Of a stretch of DNA of 56,610 nucleotides, positions 47,003 through 56,378 are shown one piece after another. The DNA comes from Butyrivibrio sp. (GTDB taxonomy: Bacteria > Bacillota > Clostridia > Lachnospirales > Lachnospiraceae), in the NCBI GenBank assembly GCA_017413105.1, contig JAFPVA010000281.1, forward strand, positions 1 through 56,610, in the 5' to 3' direction. A program made the position numbers and the translations under genes. The stretch's first letter is position 1. Every line of letters starts with the position of its first letter. Below the pieces are notes generated by a model. That model saw only the letters and a program-made list of their open reading frames with translations. It made no database searches and was not told where the DNA came from.

Positions 47003-47054
47003 AAATGCGAGGATTAGAGAATAATAAAGAATGTTACAACAAGGAAACTCGAGT

Positions 47055-48050
47055 ATGACTAAAAGAAAACTTCCCAAGCGTTTCGGCTTGGGCATTTTCT
47101 ATGTATTGGCGTTTGCTCTTTTGCTTATTCTGATACTGCACACTAACCCGAATGCAGACCCACATACGGAGATGCTAAAGAAAATATGTGGCAGTATTTT
47201 GATTGGAATAAGCTGTATTCTGGCTTTCGCCTGGTATGACAAACTGACGGTGCTGCCGGTTGAGCTTTTTAATTCAAGAAAGCTCATTAAGAGGCTGTCA
47301 GTAAATGATTTTAAAAAGAGATATGCAGGTTCATATATGGGAATCGTGTGGGCACTGGCACAGCCAGTGGTCACTGTTTGCATGTATTATATTGTTTTTG
47401 ACAGGGTGTTCCAAAGTAGAGCCCAGGCTGTATCAGGAGGAGTGGAGGTGCCTTATGTTCTCTTTCTTACAGCAGGTCTTGTACCCTGGTTCTTTTTTAC
47501 CGAAGCGCTCACAAACGGTACCACTTCACTTCTTGAATATAACTACCTGGTAAAAAAAGTTCTTTTCAAGATAAGCATACTGCCTGTTATTAAGATAATT
47601 GCTGCGATGTTCATTCATCTGTTCTTCATTTTTGTGCTTTTGATCATCGCTTGTGTCTATGGGTACTACCCAAATATTTACTGGCTTCAGCTTATTTATT
47701 ATGTAGGCTGCGAATTCATTCTGGTATTGTCTATCAGCTATGCAACCTGCGCTATTGTAGTATTTTTCAGGGATCTGTTGCAGATCATTAACATCGGACT
47801 TCAGCTGTTTCAGTGGCTTACACCTATCCTCTGGAATATTGATATCATACCGGATAAATATAAGTGGATCATCAAGCTTAACCCAATGACATATATCGTT
47901 GAGGGTTACAGAAATGCAATTTACGGTGACACCTGGTTTTTTGAGCACTTCTACTCATCCACCTACTTCTGGATCTTTGTAGTGGCAGTGTTCTGCTTCG
48001 GAGCCCTCATCTTCAAGCGCTCCAAGCCACACTTCGCAGACGTGTTATGA
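47055..48050 (+). CDS. ABC-2 polysaccharide exporter permease (Wzm/TagG-like)
   Basis: About 331 residues; ATG at 47055 preferred because AAGGA lies about 9 bases upstream (an in-frame ATG at 47031 is possible). It carries FKKRYAGSYMGIVWALAQP, typical of TagG/Wzm, FDRVFQ, a VPYVLFLTAGLVPWFFF block and LNPMTYIVEGYRNAIYGD. An extra helix pair at the N-terminus precedes the permease core. With the ATPase at 48272 it exports a complete undecaprenyl-linked polymer or teichoic-acid-like chain. Confidence 0.92.
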   Translation: MTKRKLPKRFGLGIFYVLAFALLLILILHTNPNADPHTEMLKKICGSILIGISCILAFAWYDKLTVLPVELFNSRKLIKRLSVNDFKKRYAGSYMGIVWALAQPVVTVCMYYIVFDRVFQSRAQAVSGGVEVPYVLFLTAGLVPWFFFTEALTNGTTSLLEYNYLVKKVLFKISILPVIKIIAAMFIHLFFIFVLLIIACVYGYYPNIYWLQLIYYVGCEFILVLSISYATCAIVVFFRDLLQIINIGLQLFQWLTPILWNIDIIPDKYKWIIKLNPMTYIVEGYRNAIYGDTWFFEHFYSSTYFWIFVVAVFCFGALIFKRSKPHFADVL

Positions 48051-48065
48051 TACAAGGGATTCAAA

Positions 48066-48205
48066 GTATCAAATTATCATGCTTGCATGATATAATTTGA
48101 TACCTTGAAGACCGAACAAACATGAGGATAAAAGGAATACGAATATAATGAGTATTCCGATATCCGAATGTTTGCAGGATTGCGAGAACGTAAGTGGAGC
48201 AATCC
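48066..48205 (+). ncRNA. Candidate three-hairpin structured element, copy E1
   Basis: H1 48066-48103: GTATCAAATTAT pairs with ATAATTTGATAC around a CATGC-TT-GCATG core. A 30-base linker follows. H2 48134-48158 is GGAATAC/GTATTCC. After 18 bases H3 48177-48205 is GGATTGC/GCAATCC with a loop containing GAGAACG. Every spacing up to H3 equals that in copy E2 at 54056-54194, whereas stem bases differ in a compensating way. It lies between the Wzm permease and Wzt ATPase genes. Confidence 0.6.
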
Positions 48206-48271
48206 GTAGTATCATAAATAACACATGCTTACGAATGAGAGCAGTATGAAGCTGTATAAACGGAGTAACAA

Positions 48272-49669
48272 ATGCAAAACGACATTGCGATTGAGGTAAA
48301 AAACCTCACGAAATCTTATAAATTATATGACAAGCCCATGGACAGGCTTAAGGATTCCCTGGGACTTGCCAGAAAGCGCAAGTTCAAGGAGCACCTGGCT
48401 CTGAACAATGTCAGCCTTTCCGTACGAAAGGGCGAGACAGTAGGTATCATTGGAACCAATGGTTCAGGAAAGTCCACAATCCTTAAGATTATTACAGGAG
48501 TTCTTACTCCCTCCAGCGGTGAGGTCAACGTGGATGGCCATATCTCAGCTCTTTTGGAATTGGGAGCAGGCTTTAACCTTGAGTACAATGGAATTGACAA
48601 CATCTACTTAAACGGTATGATGATCGGCTTTTCTGAGGAAGAAATAACAAAGCGTCTGGATTCAATCCTTGAGTTTGCTGATATCGGCGATTATGTATAC
48701 CAGCCGGTCAAGACCTACTCAAGCGGTATGTTCGTAAGACTTGCTTTTGCGGTTGCCATAAATATTGATCCCGAAATACTTATAGTAGACGAGGCGCTTT
48801 CTGTTGGAGATGTTTTCTTCCAGGCAAAGTGCTATCACAAATTTGAAGAGTTCAAGAATCAGGGAAAAACAATTCTTTTTGTATCCCATGATCTTTCGAG
48901 TATAAGCAAGTACTGCGACAGGGCAGTTCTTTTGAATCAGGGCGTGCTTCTTGGAGAAGGAACTCCCAAGGAGATGATAGACATCTATAAGCAGGTTCTG
49001 GTTGGGCAGTATCCGCTTCCAAGCAGTGATGTGGAGAATCTGCTTGACGACGAAGATATTCGCAGCGCCGCAGCATCAGCCAGTGATGAGGCAGACAAGA
49101 AAGTATCTAAGGCTTCTGTTTCTTCAAAGGGCAGGAAGGATAAAAAAGCTTCCGCCAAGTCTGATGCTGCAAAAGAAGAAAAAGAGGCAAGTGCAAATAC
49201 TACCGGCGATGCCAGCGTCAAGAATCCCGATACGTTGGAGTATGGTGATGGAGCAGCAGTAATAGAGGAATTCTATGCTACAGATTCCACGGGGATGCGC
49301 TCAAATTCCATCATTAAGGGCACGGATTTTGCTGTTCACATGAAAGTCAGATTTAACAGAGATGTGGCGGCACCTATTTTTGCCTTTACATTCAAGAACA
49401 TCATGGGAATTGAGATAACAGGTACCAATTCCATGGTTGAGAAGGCTTTCCTTGAGCCGGTCAAGGCAGGAGAGGTAAAAGAGATTTCTTTTACCCAGAA
49501 TATGACCCTACAGGGCGGAGAATATCTCATAAGCTTTGGTGTAACAGGGTTTGAGAAGGACAATTTCACAGTGTATCACAGACTATACGATGCACTTAAC
49601 ATCACGGTGGTTTCAGACAAGAACACCGTGGGATACTACGACATGAATTCGGTATGCGAAGTGAAATAA
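48272..49669 (+). CDS. ABC polysaccharide exporter ATPase (Wzt-like) with C-terminal domain
   Basis: 465 residues. Walker A GTNGSGKST, signature YSSGMFVRLAFA and Walker B ILIVDEALSVGD in the first 240 residues; a Lys/Ala/Ser-rich linker (about 270-320); then a beta-sandwich Wzt C-terminal-like domain to 465 (GTDFAVHMKVRF, GGEYLISFGVTG, YDMNSV). In Wzt proteins this domain recognises the modified non-reducing end of the finished polymer, which fits the methyltransferase-kinase encoded next. GGAG lies 7 bases before the ATG. Confidence 0.94.
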   Translation: MQNDIAIEVKNLTKSYKLYDKPMDRLKDSLGLARKRKFKEHLALNNVSLSVRKGETVGIIGTNGSGKSTILKIITGVLTPSSGEVNVDGHISALLELGAGFNLEYNGIDNIYLNGMMIGFSEEEITKRLDSILEFADIGDYVYQPVKTYSSGMFVRLAFAVAINIDPEILIVDEALSVGDVFFQAKCYHKFEEFKNQGKTILFVSHDLSSISKYCDRAVLLNQGVLLGEGTPKEMIDIYKQVLVGQYPLPSSDVENLLDDEDIRSAAASASDEADKKVSKASVSSKGRKDKKASAKSDAAKEEKEASANTTGDASVKNPDTLEYGDGAAVIEEFYATDSTGMRSNSIIKGTDFAVHMKVRFNRDVAAPIFAFTFKNIMGIEITGTNSMVEKAFLEPVKAGEVKEISFTQNMTLQGGEYLISFGVTGFEKDNFTVYHRLYDALNITVVSDKNTVGYYDMNSVCEVK

Positions 49670-49692
49670 ATACCAACGACAGAATAAACTAA

Positions 49693-49743
49693 GAATGTGA
49701 GCATGACTTTTGCAAAGGCATAATACCTTCATGTGAAGCATTC
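49693..49743 (+). other. Hairpin with symmetric purine-rich internal loop
   Basis: GAATG/CATTC and CATGA/TCATG stems are separated by an internal loop TGAG opposite TGAAG, which could form G-A pairs. The 22-base apical loop has an AAGG/CCTT pairing. It ends 16 bases before the methyltransferase-kinase start, so it could influence its translation. Confidence 0.45.
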
Positions 49744-49759
49744 GTGAGGAACGGGCAGG

Positions 49760-51928
49760 ATGCAGGAAAAAATTTCGATTGGGAAAGTTACTCTGAATTT
49801 CAAGCATTATTCCGGGGTTGATCTTTACAGTGATGGTTCTGTAGAGAACGACCTTCTTGAGATTGTAAGAAAATATAAAAAAGAAGACTATCAGAAGGTT
49901 ATAGAGGAGAAGGCTAACTGGCCGATCCTTTACCATCTGTCTGATCAGAGAGCCAATATTGTGGAGTGGATTCCTATGGATCCAAACGCAAAAGTCCTTG
50001 AGGTGGGATCAGGTTGTGGCGCAATCACAGGAATGCTGGCCAGCAAGGCAAAAGAGGTTGTGGCCTGCGATCTGTCCAGAAGACGTTCGGAGATAAATGC
50101 CACCAGAAATCAGGACTGCGGCAATGTGACCATTCACGTTGGAAACTTCAGGGATGTGGAGCCGGATCTTCCAAGAGATTTTGACTACATATTTTTGATT
50201 GGTGTATTTGAGTACGCGCAGGGATATATCGGAACCGACAACCCCTATGAGAAATTTCTTCGTATGATGAACCGCCACCTTAAAAAGGGCGGAAGAATTG
50301 TCATCGCCATTGAGAACCGCCTGGGCCTTAAGTACTTTGCGGGCTGTGCGGAGGATCACCTTGGCAGCTACTTCTCAGGTATTGAAGGGTACACTCCCGA
50401 CAGTGTTGCCAAGACCTTTACCAGAAATGGGCTTATCAATATTTTCAAAAAATGTGGTATGAAAGAGTACCACTTCTATTATCCATATCCTGATTACAAG
50501 CTTATGACGCTACTTCATTCAGATGACTATCTTCCTAAGTTTGGAGAGCTTCAGGATAATGTCAGAAACTTTGACAGAGACAGGCTTCTTCTTTTCAATG
50601 AGAAGCATGCCTATGAGGATCTGGTAAAAGATGGCATGTATCAGGACTTTGCAAACTCTTTTGAAGTTATAATAGGTCCCGGTTTTGACACAATCTACAG
50701 TAAATACAGCAATGACAGGGTTGATGAATTTAAGATAAGGACTGACATTGCCATTGACAGGGCTGGCAGGAAGATGATCAGAAAGGTTCCGCTTACGGAG
50801 GCTGCAAAGGAGCATGTATTCGGTATCAGGGATGCTTATCTTGGACTTCAGGAGAAGTACAGAGGCGGTGATTTTGAGGTCAATGACTGCCAGATTGATG
50901 AGAGACAGGGTTGCGCCATTTTCTCTTTTGTCAACGGAGTTCCGCTGGCGTCTCTCCTTGATGAATGTCTGGATAAAGATGATATGGGGAAATTCAATGC
51001 CCTCATTAACGAATACATCAAGAGGATAAACTACAAGCAGGATTATCCCGTGTCCGATTTTGACCTGATATTCTCAAATATTATGGTAAACGGGCCTATT
51101 TGGACTATAATAGATTATGAATGGACCTATGGAAAGTGCATTCCTGCTAAGGAGCAGCTCTGGAGAGCCATGTTCTGTTACAGATTAGAGGACAGGAAAA
51201 GAGAGAAGTTCGATCCTAAGCCTCTTTTTGACAGGATGGGAATTACAGAAAAAGATGCAGAGGTACTTTTGGAAGAGGAGAATGCTTTCCAGAAATATGT
51301 GACCGGCAATCGCAAGTCAATGGTAGAAATATGGCAGGCCATCGGCAGGAAGGTCATTCTTCCGAGAGAACTTGTGGCGGTGGATGACAAGGTCAGACCC
51401 GATGACTGTATTCAGATATATCTGGATGAGGGAAATGGCTTCTCTGAGGAGGATTCTCTTTTCCCTGAGGAACAGTATGATGATAAGCATACTGTGAGCC
51501 TTGATATCAGAACTGATAAAGAGTGCAGGATGGTCCGCGTGGATCCTGCATTTGCGCCCTGTCTGGTGACTATTCTTTCTGCAACCTGGAATGGGGAACC
51601 CTTTGCAGATAATGTTTCGGATGTTTCTATACATCCACAGAATGGCCATTGGATTTCTGATGATTCAATTCTTTTTTACAATAATGATCCTAACATTGAA
51701 TTTGGACTTACCAGCGAGAAGCTGAGCATTCAGGAGAGAAATCATCTTTGTGTGACTTATATTATGACGCTTCTTCCTGAAAATGCAGCGCAGGCTGTTG
51801 CTGATTCTCTGGAGGCTGAAGCTTCTGAAAAAGAGACAACACAGCCAAAGGACAATATTCTGAAGAAAACTGTAAAAAAGATAATTCAGAAGCGCGAGGA
51901 GCGCTATTACAAAGACGACGAGGAGTGA
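49760..51928 (+). CDS. WbdD-like methyltransferase-kinase fusion
   Basis: 722 residues. Domain 1 (about 50-300): class I SAM methyltransferase with KVLEVGSGCGAITGMLA near residue 78 and VIAIENRLGLKYF. Domain 2 (about 320-480): kinase-like, with FSFVNGVPLASLLDE as hinge, a catalytic-loop-like DFDLIFSNI near 433-441 (D-x4-N spacing) and the DFG-equivalent IIDYEW. A beta-rich region (about 590-690) and a Lys/Arg-rich amphipathic tail follow. Bifunctional O-antigen chain terminators (WbdD) combine the same two activities to cap the chain with methyl phosphate. Adjacency to Wzt makes that role likely. GAGGAA lies about 9 bases upstream. Confidence 0.75.
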   Translation: MQEKISIGKVTLNFKHYSGVDLYSDGSVENDLLEIVRKYKKEDYQKVIEEKANWPILYHLSDQRANIVEWIPMDPNAKVLEVGSGCGAITGMLASKAKEVVACDLSRRRSEINATRNQDCGNVTIHVGNFRDVEPDLPRDFDYIFLIGVFEYAQGYIGTDNPYEKFLRMMNRHLKKGGRIVIAIENRLGLKYFAGCAEDHLGSYFSGIEGYTPDSVAKTFTRNGLINIFKKCGMKEYHFYYPYPDYKLMTLLHSDDYLPKFGELQDNVRNFDRDRLLLFNEKHAYEDLVKDGMYQDFANSFEVIIGPGFDTIYSKYSNDRVDEFKIRTDIAIDRAGRKMIRKVPLTEAAKEHVFGIRDAYLGLQEKYRGGDFEVNDCQIDERQGCAIFSFVNGVPLASLLDECLDKDDMGKFNALINEYIKRINYKQDYPVSDFDLIFSNIMVNGPIWTIIDYEWTYGKCIPAKEQLWRAMFCYRLEDRKREKFDPKPLFDRMGITEKDAEVLLEEENAFQKYVTGNRKSMVEIWQAIGRKVILPRELVAVDDKVRPDDCIQIYLDEGNGFSEEDSLFPEEQYDDKHTVSLDIRTDKECRMVRVDPAFAPCLVTILSATWNGEPFADNVSDVSIHPQNGHWISDDSILFYNNDPNIEFGLTSEKLSIQERNHLCVTYIMTLLPENAAQAVADSLEAEASEKETTQPKDNILKKTVKKIIQKREERYYKDDEE

Positions 51929-51938
51929 GTTTGGGGAT

Positions 51939-54059
51939 ATGCTAAAGGGACTTGTTAAAGATGCTCTTACAAAGAAAAGCATAAAGAAGTATAACAGGCT
52001 GCTTAACGTAAAGTCCTCCGCCTATGATAAATGGCAGAAGGGTATTGAGAAGCAGCAGGTCCCTGTATCGGAAGCTCCAATTAATTATCAGACTAATGAA
52101 GTGGGGGAGCTAATCCCTGTTAAGCTTCCGGACCCTAAGGTAAAGGTTGTTCCCTATGCCAAGGTATGGGACATCACCAATGTTAAGGGCGATGAGTCGG
52201 TTGTTTATCTTTTCATTAGTCCAAAGGGGAAACTGACTAAGAGAGCCACAGAGGTGATAAGGCAGTATTTTATTGCACATCCTGAGCATAGTGTGGTTTA
52301 TGGCGATGAGGACGAGATTGGTAAGGGCGGCAAGTATATTCACCCGTATTTTAAGCCGGACTGGTCCCCGGATTCGTATCTTAATGCGTTTTATATCGGC
52401 AGTTTTTTTGCCTGCAGAGCTAAGACTCTGCATGAAGCTACATCCGAGTATGATAGTGCTGTCAGAATGCTCGGAGGAGTCAACAATAAGAGAAACTCAC
52501 CTGAACAGGTGGGGCTTGAAGCATCCTTGCTTTCGGCGGATGTCCTTTTTTGCATGCTTGCCATTCATGAGCATGCCTTTGCAAAGAGGACCGGATTGGA
52601 ATTTCCTATCGGACATATTAAGGAAGTTCTTTTCCACAGAAATCCGGAGCAGGATGTTTTTTATGGGCGCAATTTCCATAATTCCAAGCACATGCTCATA
52701 AAGCCTACAACCGTCAGCATAATTATCCCTTCCAAGGATCATCCGGAGGTCTTAAAGAGATGTCTGGAGTCCATAGTTGAGACCACTGCTGACAATGGTG
52801 GGATTACCTATGATATAGCGGTTGTTGATAATGGCAGCGATGCCAAAAACAGAGTCCGCTACGGCGTGTTTATTGGGAAAATACCGAAAAAGAATGGTCT
52901 TACAAGGATCAATTATATTTATAAGCTTGAAGAGTTCAATTTTTCAGCTATGTGCAACAAGGGTGCCCGAAATACAACCGGAGAGTACCTCCTTTTCCTG
53001 AATGATGATATAGAATGCATAAAGGACGGGTGGCTCAGGGAGCTGGTTTCACAGGCGCAGCTCAAGCATGTTGGTGCGGTAGGATCTAAGCTGATCTATC
53101 CGGATTCAGATCTTATCCAGCATGCAGGTATTGCCAATGTTATGAGAGGTCCTGTGCACAAGCTTCAGAAGATGCATGACAATAAGAGCCATTACTTTGG
53201 TTATAACAGAGGAATTCACAACACGATAGGTGTCACCGGGGCTTGCCTTCTTGTCAGCAGGAAGAAGTTCAATGATGTTGGAGGTTTCCCGGAAGAACTT
53301 AAGGTTGCTTTCAATGACGTGGATATATGCTATTCTCTTTTTGAGAAGGGCTATTACAATGTGTGCTGCAATCATTTTTATCTAAGGCACTATGAATCTC
53401 TGTCCAGGGGGCTTGATACCATGGATCCCAAGAAGATGGAGAGACTTTCTGCCGAAGGCGAAATATTGATGCGCAAGCACCCAAAGCTTTACAACGTTGA
53501 TCCGTTCTACAGCCCTCATCTTAATGAAGATGAGACTATTACAGCGATAATTCCGAGGGTTGACTATACTCCTGTGGAGGATATTCCCTACGCCACTGTC
53601 ACAATTCATGATAAGGGCATCAGGCATGCCAGAGAGGATCAGTGTCTCAGGATTGGCTGCGAGTTTAACGGAACGCTCAACAACTGGCTATACGGCACCA
53701 ATGCAGACGGCAATGAGAATGGCTATTATCTTAAGGGCTATAGCTTTGTCATCGGTTCAGACAATGCAACCTTTGAGAGAAGGCTGCTTTTAAGACTCGT
53801 GGAAAAAAATGAGGATGGAGCAGGCCCAGTATCTCCAAAGGTATACAGCTTTCCGATTTATGTGGGATATCGTCCTGACATAAGGATAAGGCTGCAGGAT
53901 CAGGTAAATGTTGATCTTACCGGATATAAGGTAAAAATAGAGAAGGGACTTCTTCCTCCGGGAAATTACCAGGTCGGAATGCTGGCATCGGATAAGACCA
54001 GCCGCCTAAAACTGGTCAACTGGGTCCCAAACGTACTTAGAATAAGACATGCAAAGTGA
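51939..54059 (+). CDS. Large multidomain GT2 glycosyltransferase
   Basis: 706 residues. An N-terminal region (about 85-240) resembles a degenerate GT-A fold with VVYGDEDEI. The active-looking GT2 domain begins VSIIIPSKDHPEVLKRC (259), has VVDNGSD, and FLNDDIECIKD (354) as metal site, then HAGIANVMRG and FNDVDICYSLFEKGY, typical of rhamnosyltransferase-like chain enzymes. The C-terminal 170 residues are beta-rich, perhaps a glycan-binding module. It follows the methyltransferase-kinase by 10 bases and ends at the start of element E2. Confidence 0.85.
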   Translation: MLKGLVKDALTKKSIKKYNRLLNVKSSAYDKWQKGIEKQQVPVSEAPINYQTNEVGELIPVKLPDPKVKVVPYAKVWDITNVKGDESVVYLFISPKGKLTKRATEVIRQYFIAHPEHSVVYGDEDEIGKGGKYIHPYFKPDWSPDSYLNAFYIGSFFACRAKTLHEATSEYDSAVRMLGGVNNKRNSPEQVGLEASLLSADVLFCMLAIHEHAFAKRTGLEFPIGHIKEVLFHRNPEQDVFYGRNFHNSKHMLIKPTTVSIIIPSKDHPEVLKRCLESIVETTADNGGITYDIAVVDNGSDAKNRVRYGVFIGKIPKKNGLTRINYIYKLEEFNFSAMCNKGARNTTGEYLLFLNDDIECIKDGWLRELVSQAQLKHVGAVGSKLIYPDSDLIQHAGIANVMRGPVHKLQKMHDNKSHYFGYNRGIHNTIGVTGACLLVSRKKFNDVGGFPEELKVAFNDVDICYSLFEKGYYNVCCNHFYLRHYESLSRGLDTMDPKKMERLSAEGEILMRKHPKLYNVDPFYSPHLNEDETITAIIPRVDYTPVEDIPYATVTIHDKGIRHAREDQCLRIGCEFNGTLNNWLYGTNADGNENGYYLKGYSFVIGSDNATFERRLLLRLVEKNEDGAGPVSPKVYSFPIYVGYRPDIRIRLQDQVNVDLTGYKVKIEKGLLPPGNYQVGMLASDKTSRLKLVNWVPNVLRIRHAK

Positions 54060-54194
54060 TACAGTGTTCTGCTTGCAGAAAACACTGTATCACCTTGCAG
54101 GGCAAACAAATATGAGGAAAAAAGATATGCGAACGAAGAGAGCATATCGATTTCCGAATATTTGTAGGACTGCGAAAACGAAGTGTAGCAGTCC
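54056..54194 (+). ncRNA. Candidate three-hairpin structured element, copy E2
   Basis: H1 54056-54093: GTGATACAGTGTTCTGC pairs with GCAGAAAACACTGTATCAC apart from two extra A, overlapping the stop codon of the preceding gene. A 30-base linker leads to H2 54124-54148 (GATATGC/GCATATC), then an 18-base linker and H3 54167-54194 (GGACTGC/GCAGTCC). Linker 2 and the H3 loop are close to those of E1 (CCGAAT, AACG and AAGTG in common). Its first 64 bases after H1's start are duplicated at 54231-54294. Confidence 0.6.
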
Positions 54195-54294
54195 GTATTC
54201 TAAGACAAGAAAAAACATCAAGTAACAAAATGTTCTGCTTGCAGAAAACACTGTATCACCTTGCAGGGCAAACAAATATGAGGAAAAAAGATAT
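54065..54294 (+). repeat. Exact 64-bp direct repeat pair
   Basis: 54065-54128 and 54231-54294 are identical over 64 bases. The unit covers most of H1, linker 1 and the first bases of H2 of element E2. In the second copy H2 and H3 are missing, and its ATGAGGAAAAAAGATAT end directly precedes the ATG at 54297, supplying the GAGGA ribosome binding site of the last gene. Confidence 0.9.
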
Positions 54295-54296
54295 AC

Positions 54297-56378
54297 ATGA
54301 ACGACGAAAAAGACTACAAGGCCGCATACGAGCGTGAGAAGCTAAAAACTGCGGACCTTGCCGAAAAGGTTGCGGAACTTGAAGACAAGAATCAGGAACT
54401 GCAATTCAAGCTGGACAGGATAAAGAACAATCCCATCTGGAAGGCTTCAACCCCGGCGAGAAATACCATGCACTGGGTCATCAGGCAGAAGGACAGGATT
54501 AAGAATCAGGGCTCTGTTCGTGGCGTTATTGCCAAGATCAAGTACAAGCAGATTGAAAAGAAGGCCATGACCCACTTTGGAACAGAGAGTTTTCCAAGTG
54601 AGGAGACAAGAGCACAGCAGGAAAACGCAGTATTTGAGAAGATGCCTCTGATATCAATCCTGGTGCCTCTTTACAATACCCCGGAGAAATTTCTCAGGGA
54701 CATGATAGAGTCAGTGCTTGCACAGACCTATGGTAACTGGCAGCTTTGCCTGGCGGATGGCTCAGATGCAGAGCACATCGGAATTGTTAAGAGTATTGTA
54801 GAAGAATACCAAAAGGACCCCAGAGCTGCTTTTTCGGGAAAGTACCCCAATGAAGCGGGCGATGGCAAGAATAGAATAAGCTATCAGAAGCTTGAAAAGA
54901 ATGAAGGAATCGCGGGCAACACCAATCACTGTTTGGAGCTTGCAAAGGGAGAGTATATAGGTCTTTTTGACCACGATGATATCCTGCATCCGGAGGTTCT
55001 GTACTGGTATGTGAAGGTTATAAATGAGGAGAATGCTGATTACATCTACTGTGATGAGACTACCTTTAAGGGTGATGACATCAATAAGATGATAACCATG
55101 CATTTTAAACCGGATTACGCCATAGATAACCTTAGAGCAAATAATTATATCTGCCATTTCAGTGTTTTCAAAAGAAGTCTTCTTGATGGCACAGAGCTCT
55201 TCAGGACCAAGTTTGACGGAAGTCAGGACCACGATATGATTCTTCGTCTTACTGACAGAGCAGAGCATATAGTTCATGTTCCAAAGCTTTTGTACTACTG
55301 GAGAAGCCACGCCGGATCGGTAGCTTCTGATATCAGTGCAAAACCCTATGCCATCGAGGCAGCAAAGGGTGCTGTGGCTGATCACCTTAGGCGCCATGGG
55401 TATGAGCACTTTAAGATCACAAGTACCAGAGCCTTTGAGACAATCTTCAAGATCACCTATGAGGTTAAGGGAAATCCCAAGATTTCAATTGTGATCCCAA
55501 GCTGCGAACATGCTGAGGACTTGAAGAGATGTATAACTTCTATCTATGAGAAGTCTGTTTACGACAACTACGAGATAATAGTTGTAGAGAACGGCAGTAC
55601 CGGCAGTGAAGTTAAGGGCTATTACGAGGAACTTAGGAATGGCTCGTTAAAAGATATTGTGAAAGTGGTTGATTACTACGAGGGCGGAGCACATCTTAAT
55701 CCGGATGGCACGAAGCCTGCTTTCAACTACTCAGCGGTTGTAAACTATGGAGTTCAGCACTCCACAGGAGAATACATTATTTTCCTTAACAATGATACTC
55801 AGGTTATAACCGTTAACTGGATGGAAGAGCTTTTGATGTACGCTCAGAGAAGTGATGTTGGCGCAGTTGGCGGTAAGCTCTACTTCCCGGACAGAAAGAT
55901 ACAGCACGCCGGAGTTGTGCTAAAGCTTGGCGCTCACAGGACAGCCGGGCATTCTCATTACGGACAGGAAGGCATGAATCTTGGATATATGGGAAGACTT
56001 TGTTATGCTCAGGATGTCAGTGCTGTTACCGGTGCCTGCATGATGGTGAGCCGTGCCAAGTATGACGAGGTTGGAGGCTACGATGAGACCTTCCAGGTGA
56101 GCCTCAACGACGTGGACTTTTGCTTAAAACTCCGTGAAAAGGGCTATCTGAATGTCTTTACCCCATTTGCGGAGCTGTTCCATTATGAGTCCCTTAGCCG
56201 CGGCCTTGACCTTGAGGGCGAGAACGCAAAGCGTTACGAGTCAGAGTCAGAGCACTTCCGCACCAAGTGGAAAGAGGTGCTTGATAAGGGAGACCCTTAC
56301 TACAACCCGAATTTCTCACTTGATCGCAGCGATTTTTCGCTTAATGTGGAAGGGTACTCCAGCTTGAGGGATAAGTGA
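54297..56378 (+). CDS. Double-GT2 glycosyltransferase
   Basis: 693 residues. N-terminal coiled coil (about 12-50, AEKVAELEDKNQELQFKLD), then GT2 domain A from about 119 (ISILVPLYNTPEKF, DHDD at about 223-226) and GT2 domain B from about 397 (ISIVIPSCEHAEDL, FLNNDTQV at about 497, HAGVVLKLG, LNDVDFCLKLREKGY). Two catalytic-looking sites suggest a processive or disaccharide-adding enzyme, as in WbbL/WsaE-like polymer synthesis. The RBS comes from the repeat in front of it. Confidence 0.88.
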   Translation: MNDEKDYKAAYEREKLKTADLAEKVAELEDKNQELQFKLDRIKNNPIWKASTPARNTMHWVIRQKDRIKNQGSVRGVIAKIKYKQIEKKAMTHFGTESFPSEETRAQQENAVFEKMPLISILVPLYNTPEKFLRDMIESVLAQTYGNWQLCLADGSDAEHIGIVKSIVEEYQKDPRAAFSGKYPNEAGDGKNRISYQKLEKNEGIAGNTNHCLELAKGEYIGLFDHDDILHPEVLYWYVKVINEENADYIYCDETTFKGDDINKMITMHFKPDYAIDNLRANNYICHFSVFKRSLLDGTELFRTKFDGSQDHDMILRLTDRAEHIVHVPKLLYYWRSHAGSVASDISAKPYAIEAAKGAVADHLRRHGYEHFKITSTRAFETIFKITYEVKGNPKISIVIPSCEHAEDLKRCITSIYEKSVYDNYEIIVVENGSTGSEVKGYYEELRNGSLKDIVKVVDYYEGGAHLNPDGTKPAFNYSAVVNYGVQHSTGEYIIFLNNDTQVITVNWMEELLMYAQRSDVGAVGGKLYFPDRKIQHAGVVLKLGAHRTAGHSHYGQEGMNLGYMGRLCYAQDVSAVTGACMMVSRAKYDEVGGYDETFQVSLNDVDFCLKLREKGYLNVFTPFAELFHYESLSRGLDLEGENAKRYESESEHFRTKWKEVLDKGDPYYNPNFSLDRSDFSLNVEGYSSLRDK

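Follow-up and report, generated by a model that had tools for sequence, protein, structure and literature searches.

The window analysed here, a 56,610-nucleotide (nt) contig of Butyrivibrio sp. (JAFPVA010000281.1, assembly GCA_017413105.1), carries two copies, E1 and E2, of a structured RNA element, and both certainly belong to Clostridiales-1 RNA (Rfam RF01699). On balance we favour the reading that E1 and E2 are transposon-derived, cis-acting intercistronic RNAs, and that a ribosome which terminates on the upstream gene would open their closing stem P1 and so affect the processing or stability of the messenger RNA (mRNA). The parts of this reading differ in strength. The mobile origin of the family and the placement rule of copies of the window type (sense strand, between co-directional genes, at the upstream stop codon) are well supported, and a cis role of these copies is likely; transcription through the element and its effect on the mRNA are what we infer, and gating of P1 by the ribosome is what we hypothesise by analogy with a repeat of Yersinia. 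The mobile origin, the placement rule, the pairing of stop codons by a copy-specific P1 and the strong covariation all appear to be new findings.

E1 matches the RF01699 covariance model at 48048-48214 with 109.4 bits and E2 at 54037-54203 with 96.6 bits, both over model positions 1-166 and above the gathering cut-off of 48, i.e. over the full model; the initial annotation of an undescribed structured RNA is therefore rejected. The stems and compensatory changes quoted there for the two copies are present in the sequence at their positions. The extents proposed for them (48066-48205 and 54056-54194) are too short, the closing stem P1 having been overlooked; with it E1 measures 183 nt and E2 174 nt, each consisting of three hairpins (H1 to H3) and P1 (Table 1). 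The linkers described as conserved are so in sequence, but they are largely paired and form the base of H1 and H2: the base of H2 pairs CAAACAT/ATGTTTG in E1 and CAAATAT/ATATTTG in E2, which adds one more two-sided pair change. Nor do both elements lie wholly between genes, as had been assumed, because the 5' end of E2 (from about 54033) lies inside the last codons of the glycosyltransferase gene and P1 of E1 holds the permease stop codon. The predicted folds reach -72.9 kcal/mol for E1 (z -10.1) and -72.0 kcal/mol for E2 (z -11.7), and none of 200 shuffled sequences was equally stable in either case.

Table 1. Positions of E1, E2 and a partial third copy in the window, with their predicted parts
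Feature	Position	Strand	Remarks
E1, Clostridiales-1 RNA	48042..48224	+	Rfam match and fold with closing stem; flanked by the genes of an ABC-2 permease (47031-48050) and an ABC ATPase (48272-49669)
E1 P1, 5' strand	48042..48053	+	end of upstream gene including stop TGA (48048-48050); partner 48209-48224
E1 H1	48056..48113	+	hypervariable stem, CUUG tetraloop; fold
E1 H2	48117..48174	+	base includes much of the supposed 30-base linker; fold
E1 H3	48177..48205	+	fold
E2, Clostridiales-1 RNA	54033..54206	+	overlaps end of glycosyltransferase gene (51939-54059); Rfam match and fold
E2 P1	54033-54044 paired with 54196-54206	+	fold
E2 H1	54046..54103	+	upstream stop codon (54057-54059) inside its 5' strand; fold
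E2 H2	54106..54165	+	fold
E2 H3	54167..54194	+	fold
Partial third copy	54231..54294	+	identical to 54065-54128 over 64 nt; 2 nt separate it from the next start codon (ATG at 54297)

Further copies, which the initial annotation had proposed to look for, were found at E 0.001 in all 61 genus genomes searched (59 of them above the cut-off); in the order, matches occur in 57 of 295 genomes (42 above the cut-off), both searches having been run with stricter filters. The window's own genome (327 contigs, 94.9% complete) contains 19 matches at E 0.001, 13 of which exceed the cut-off. Identity among the 12 own-genome copies that were compared does not exceed 78% (median 63%), so they are evidently old; within genomes holding at least nine copies the median identity is likewise mostly 60-66%. 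We aligned 113 distinct matches to the covariance model, a procedure that follows the structure and is biased in its favour, with related copies that are not independent: 95.8% of the stem cells are paired, with two-sided changes in 1018 cells, compared to 70.1% and 273 in shuffled alignments, none of 500 of which reaches the observed values, and to 29.5 to 43.3% paired for slid structures. Thus selection on the structure, originally claimed from E1 and E2, is supported by covariation far beyond chance. In 45 pairs of copies at orthologous sites, which are not independent either, the model stems show 1153 unchanged pairs, 362 two-sided and 25 one-sided changes, 91 pairs that are broken in a single copy and 2 in both copies, and 32 with gaps. 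One-sided intermediates are almost missing, which suggests that an H1 stem is at times exchanged as a whole; indeed, the H1 stems of E1 and of its ortholog L192 are unrelated. A GCUUGC tetraloop is found on H1 in 86 of the 113 copies. After removal of identical rows and of rows of at most 125 nt (107 rows left), G-U pairs outnumber A-C combinations 74 to 16 in the fitted alignment, and 20 to 4 in H2 and H3 alone, so that the sense RNA is favoured as the selected strand. A 'conserved wobble' considered at the base of H1 (A-C 54, A-U 17, G-U 13, others 3) was rejected, A-U being common there too. These observations bear on the view that the copies are tolerated parasites, i.e. functionless, decaying transposon relics surviving where they do no harm, behind operon stop codons and in an orientation that is non-terminating and non-blocking. 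We regard this as unlikely: neutral copies should lose their pairing, yet nearly all stem cells pair despite identities of 60-66%.

Gene context and stop distances were obtained for 199 copies with a simple gene finder of our own instead of annotation. The copies form four sets: 13 from the window's genome (the matches above the cut-off, 6 weaker ones being left out), 97 of 179 tallied matches from seven relatives, 50 that are the best match of each genome, a choice that favours canonical copies, and 39 from four burst genomes (G042, G299, G330 and G167). The 5' neighbour is in sense orientation for 12 of 13 own-genome copies, 93 of 97 in the relatives and 37 of 50 in the one-per-genome set, and the 3' neighbour is in sense for 13 of 13 in the own genome; in the burst genomes no orientation is preferred (16 sense, 21 antisense, 2 unknown). 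An upstream stop codon falls within -12 to +10 nt of the element start in 10/13, 77/97 and 26/50 copies of the first three sets and in 3/39 burst copies. This anchoring separates copies by the terminal palindrome at their right end: it is seen in 114 of 160 copies without the palindrome vs 2 of 39 with it. Among non-burst copies between two sense genes, 116 of 129 are nearer to the upstream stop than to the next start. In E1 and E2 alike the right palindrome is absent from the 60 nt 3' of the model match, and neither shows the right terminal repeat or the target-site duplication of a miniature inverted-repeat transposable element (MITE). Where non-burst copies have no palindrome, direct 5-mers close to their ends (18/155) are in no excess over chance (14.2% in controls).

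Such placement also argues against a trans-acting small RNA gene, the type (Gene; sRNA) that Rfam assigns to the family. The RNA is predicted to be compact and to fold independently, which suits such a gene, but the sense orientation, the anchoring at upstream stops and the up to 42 matches in a single genome make this very improbable, and sense-strand scans of E1 and E2, of a kind that misses many real sites, showed no promoter-like or terminator-like consensus site. As no terminator-like site was seen there, we also rejected an attenuator or terminator, one of the roles (attenuation, RNA processing or binding of a regulator) that had been proposed for both copies within a polysaccharide export operon. 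A tie to the export genes was rejected, because the neighbours of other copies are unrelated: stop-anchored copies (104 pairs, cut by hand to 76 by removing repeated orthologs) have no Pfam family in common among their upstream or their downstream proteins (76 each), the largest counts being 3 and 7, respectively. Without a common function class among these proteins, an effect on the message is likelier than one on a pathway, and the operon role is refined in that sense.

The closing stem P1 links the copies to their surroundings. In the 113 stop-anchored copies (E1 counted in), in which the 5' strand of P1 is placed comparably to that of E1, the longest Watson-Crick run between the ends averages 8.91 base pairs (bp), compared to 5.31 in cross-pairs; the Rfam model includes P1 and favours paired ends here. 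Runs of at least 4 bp outside the model ends, which are free of that bias, occur in 21 of the 113 copies vs 2.4% of cross-pairs. The 39 burst copies are nearly without copy-specific ends (6.64 vs 5.68 bp; 1/39 vs 1.2%). Of 111 stop-anchored copies, 79 have a P1 that overlaps the stop codon, and in 57 of the 111 the stem reaches the preceding codons. Examples are L227, where ACAAGGTAGTT pairs with AACTACCTTGT, and L213, where GGATATTAAACG pairs with CGTTTAATATCC; in E1, GTGTTATGATAC pairs with GTATCATAAATAACAC, with a 4-nt bulge. Between 47 pairs of orthologous copies, counting only positions paired in both (i.e. leaving broken pairs out), P1 is unchanged at 314, differs on both sides at 37 and on one side at 8, and some TGA/TAA/TAG swaps between species are matched in the 3' arm, e.g. 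in L226/L271 and L030/L065. A closing stem that tracks the surroundings of each copy and some stop-codon swaps is not expected of a relic. It also bears on a static stabiliser or processing site of the REP or NEMIS kind, in which the fold would block 3' exonucleases or be cut by RNase III without any sensing of ribosomes. The long, near-perfect H1 with its stable tetraloop suits such a device, as does the position behind the upstream gene, including two of the 13 own-genome copies (L006 and L007) that follow a solute-binding protein gene and precede one for a transporter ATPase or permease; unequal expression is usual at junctions of this kind, malE-malF of Escherichia coli being a parallel. 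However, this explanation accounts neither for the stop codon in the closing stem of most stop-anchored copies nor for the conserved H2 and H3, and we consider it improbable.

Judging from orthologous loci, E1 and E2 are insertions, because most relatives among the best-matching genus loci are without them. For each site the 30 best of 79 genomes were compared, the window included, with remnants and other repeats judged by eye. At the E1 site only the window and L128 have a full element, 28 of 29 relatives being without one, and apparent remnants are seen in L131, L139, L144 and, less surely, L138. At the E2 site a full element is present in the window, L283 and L291, while L280 shows it up to the edge of its locus; 26 of 29 relatives are without a full element, L277 and L281 having remnants, 19 loci gaps of at most 20 nt and five other, longer gaps. 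As element-free relatives end differently (e.g. L278, with a gap of 2 nt), the insertion of E2 probably changed the end of the protein too, replacing the last glycosyltransferase codons. This protein ends in NVLRIRHAK in the window, several element-free relatives in NVKE or NVKR. The turnover between related species, with its remnants and empty sites, fits a tolerated relic, and so do the unrelated genes that copies adjoin and the way in which young copies are scattered and point in either direction.

Some further repeats were noticed at the two sites. The orthologous gap at E1 holds other repeat-like sequence in L123, L136, L140 and L143 (judged by eye), including a GTCATG-rich repeat and one with long complementary arms, so that the region behind the permease gene is perhaps a hot spot for intercistronic repeats. 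Locus L233 of G051, which is orthologous to the E2 site and outside the 30 loci, has three full tandem copies that are 93-99% identical; head-to-tail copies a few bases apart are also seen in L267 (G014) and L104 (G024). The partial third copy in the window contains a GAGGA that could serve as the Shine-Dalgarno sequence of the next glycosyltransferase gene, which would then be repeat-derived.

The mobile origin of the family can be read from its young copies. Near-identical copies are dispersed in the three genus genomes G042, G299 and G330, and their shared unit of 190 bp extends beyond the Rfam model by the terminal palindrome, with the ends TGACGTAAGGGTCAAAAGT and, inward, TGAGGTAGGTGTCAAAAGT. 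All 28 near-identical copies examined are flanked by 5-bp direct repeats, compared to 65 of 702 mismatched flank pairs used as a control. In 4 of 27 copies the repeat can be read as 6 bp; L091, whose end differs by one base, has it as well, and the 159-bp copy L102 retains it while the palindrome is absent. Terminal inverted repeats and target-site duplication, two hallmarks of a MITE, are thus seen in the young copies and place the family as a whole in this class. A third, ends in common with an autonomous element, is provided by an insertion sequence of 1869 bp (L327, 1177-3045) with the ends TGATGTGGGTGTCAAAAGT and TGATGTAGGTGTCAAAAGT, the duplication TTATA and one transposase of 554 amino acids. 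A scan of public genomes for the end pattern gave at least 120 stretches, and in the 120 listed, all of which were checked, L327 is the only inward pair with both a duplication and a transposase; L369, L394, L403, L409, L411 and L419 have inward end pairs without a duplication. The transposase contains the Pfam domains PF13751, PF01609 and PF05598, and its nearest NCBIfam model is IS1182 (NF033551; 136 bits, E 1.8e-39, below the curated cut-off of 270), by which it appears related to the IS1182 family without reaching that family's cut-off. It has matches at E 0.001 in 8 of 79 genus genomes, some of them weak. Several copies are found in G055, the closest in the genus at about 58% identity, with the left end TGATGTGGGTGTCAAAAGT and the right end ...ACTTTTGGCACCTACATCA. 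The initial annotation had held that a match to a known mobile palindrome with no RNA expression would speak against a structured RNA; this applies in part, the family being mobile in origin, but copies of the window type look like selected cis RNA.

An autonomous partner inside G042 was considered and rejected, since the sole wide pair noticed among the 70 end matches listed there, L175, is without a duplication; in 11 more G042 stretches around single ends no transposase was recognised by eye. In L175 a left and a right element end, 1.7 kb apart, flank a GH32-like sucrose hydrolase gene (named by eye, without a family search), and with the target duplication absent these may be two separate ends. 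By eye, some young copies have larger H2 tips (L159, L162) or a larger H3 (L154, L176, L186), and in L156 both H1 and H2 are deleted; hairpins seem to behave as exchangeable modules. L152, L183 and L185, likewise judged by eye, are palindromes of ~40-50 bp whose ends are similar and which lack the RNA core; those of L152 and L185 are flanked by direct repeats. They look like a miniature element of this type in smaller form.

What was known of Clostridiales-1 is little. The three columns of the table in which it was listed presumably stand for RNA, cis-regulatory and switch. In its row they read y, n and n, and the RNA is tabulated there without a function (Weinberg et al. 2010, PMC2864571); the portions of that paper drawn on here mention neither a mobile origin nor stop-codon anchoring. 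Besides PMC2864571, nothing evidently on Clostridiales-1 was found in a literature search under the family name or RF01699, as far as the partial texts returned go, and a search for papers linking Butyrivibrio with miniature inverted-repeat elements found none.

Structured repeats behind genes, for which mRNA stabilisation has been proposed, are the REP/BIME elements of E. coli. These are palindromes of 20-40 bp in the part of the description used here (PMC3733652). Clostridiales-1 differs from them as a multi-hairpin RNA of 165 nt (183 and 174 nt for E1 and E2 with P1). The work on ERIC in Yersinia is reportedly that of De Gregorio et al. from 2005. ERIC is described in the passages available as a 127-bp repeat predicted to form one long stem-loop (PMC2267715), which in Yersinia is co-transcribed with its gene; ribosomes reaching the gene end have been proposed to change its fold and thereby to expose a nuclease site (PMC2229807, PMC10969869). 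Clostridiales-1 is alike in being a miniature element at 3' gene ends with an RNA fold and a dependence on orientation, and its geometry resembles the ERIC proposal, the closing stem having a stop codon in its 5' strand and a free 3' arm before the next gene; an upstream stop inside the terminal stem is found for most of the stop-anchored copies, E1 included, though not for E2. Unlike ERIC, it is a multi-hairpin domain whose closing stem is fitted to the copy's own surroundings. The MITE-like repeats bcr1-bcr3 of the Bacillus cereus group are transcribed within untranslated and operon-internal regions, intergenic repeats lying within mRNA in 84/165 and 62/155 cases, and bcr3 correlates with a longer mRNA half-life (PMC3446304). 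They belong to another lineage, and the excerpts likened here by description do not mention stop-codon anchoring. The same holds for a stop-codon stem in the excerpts on the Correia/NEMIS elements of Neisseria, miniature mobile repeats, likened by description, with RNA hairpins that RNase III cuts (PMC10969869, PMC2229807).

Taken together, we propose that a miniature element, the putative non-autonomous relative of an IS1182-related insertion sequence, gave rise to E1 and E2, which are old and probably no longer mobile, and that copies have been kept in this lineage as cis-acting intercistronic RNA elements, in sense and directly at the end of the upstream gene. P1 usually pairs the upstream stop region with the 3' arm before the leader of the next gene. 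A ribosome arriving at the upstream stop would melt P1 (in E2 the base of H1 as well) and release the 3' arm; with translation idle, P1 would close and the whole element become compact and nuclease-resistant. Such a switch could alter cleavage or decay of the mRNA on either side, so that two cistrons of one transcript would be expressed differently.

Several observations weigh against this proposal. The stop codon of E2 lies in H1 and not in P1. The 47 non-burst copies that are not stop-anchored have similarly matched ends (8.51 vs 5.31 bp; 8/47 vs 3.2%); because they resemble the anchored copies and burst copies have nearly none, copy-specific ends are a general property of old copies, and the partner in most of them is a gene end. 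Of the 39 palindrome-bearing copies, 34 come from the four burst genomes and are not 39 independent events. The ratio of 362 two-sided to 25 one-sided changes fits wholesale stem replacement, by re-insertion or recombination, as well as stepwise compensation. As for the strand, an alignment-free test of H1 gives 22 G-U vs 13 A-C (p 0.18) when a conserved A-C position is excluded, and 48 A-C vs 22 G-U when it is included (34 copies). An insertion sequence of the L327 type was not found in the window's genome, G042, G299 or G330, and we infer its cross-mobilisation of the miniature copies from their ends alone. Finally, copies decay and disappear between species; therefore no single copy is essential.

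In a bolder version, which we hold to be possible but rather doubtful, Clostridiales-1 would be a mobile sensor of translation termination, with P1 adapted to the stop and last codons of each host gene and tuning the next gene. If this were true, dozens of unrelated genes of Butyrivibrio and its relatives would each be followed by the same device. For an orphan Rfam family these results provide an origin, namely a transposon whose partner is of a known kind, a rule of genomic placement and a testable mechanism, and the family would be a clear case of a mobile-element RNA selected many times inside operons. The stop-codon stem offers a direct handle on how control of the next cistron could depend on a ribosome reaching a stop codon.

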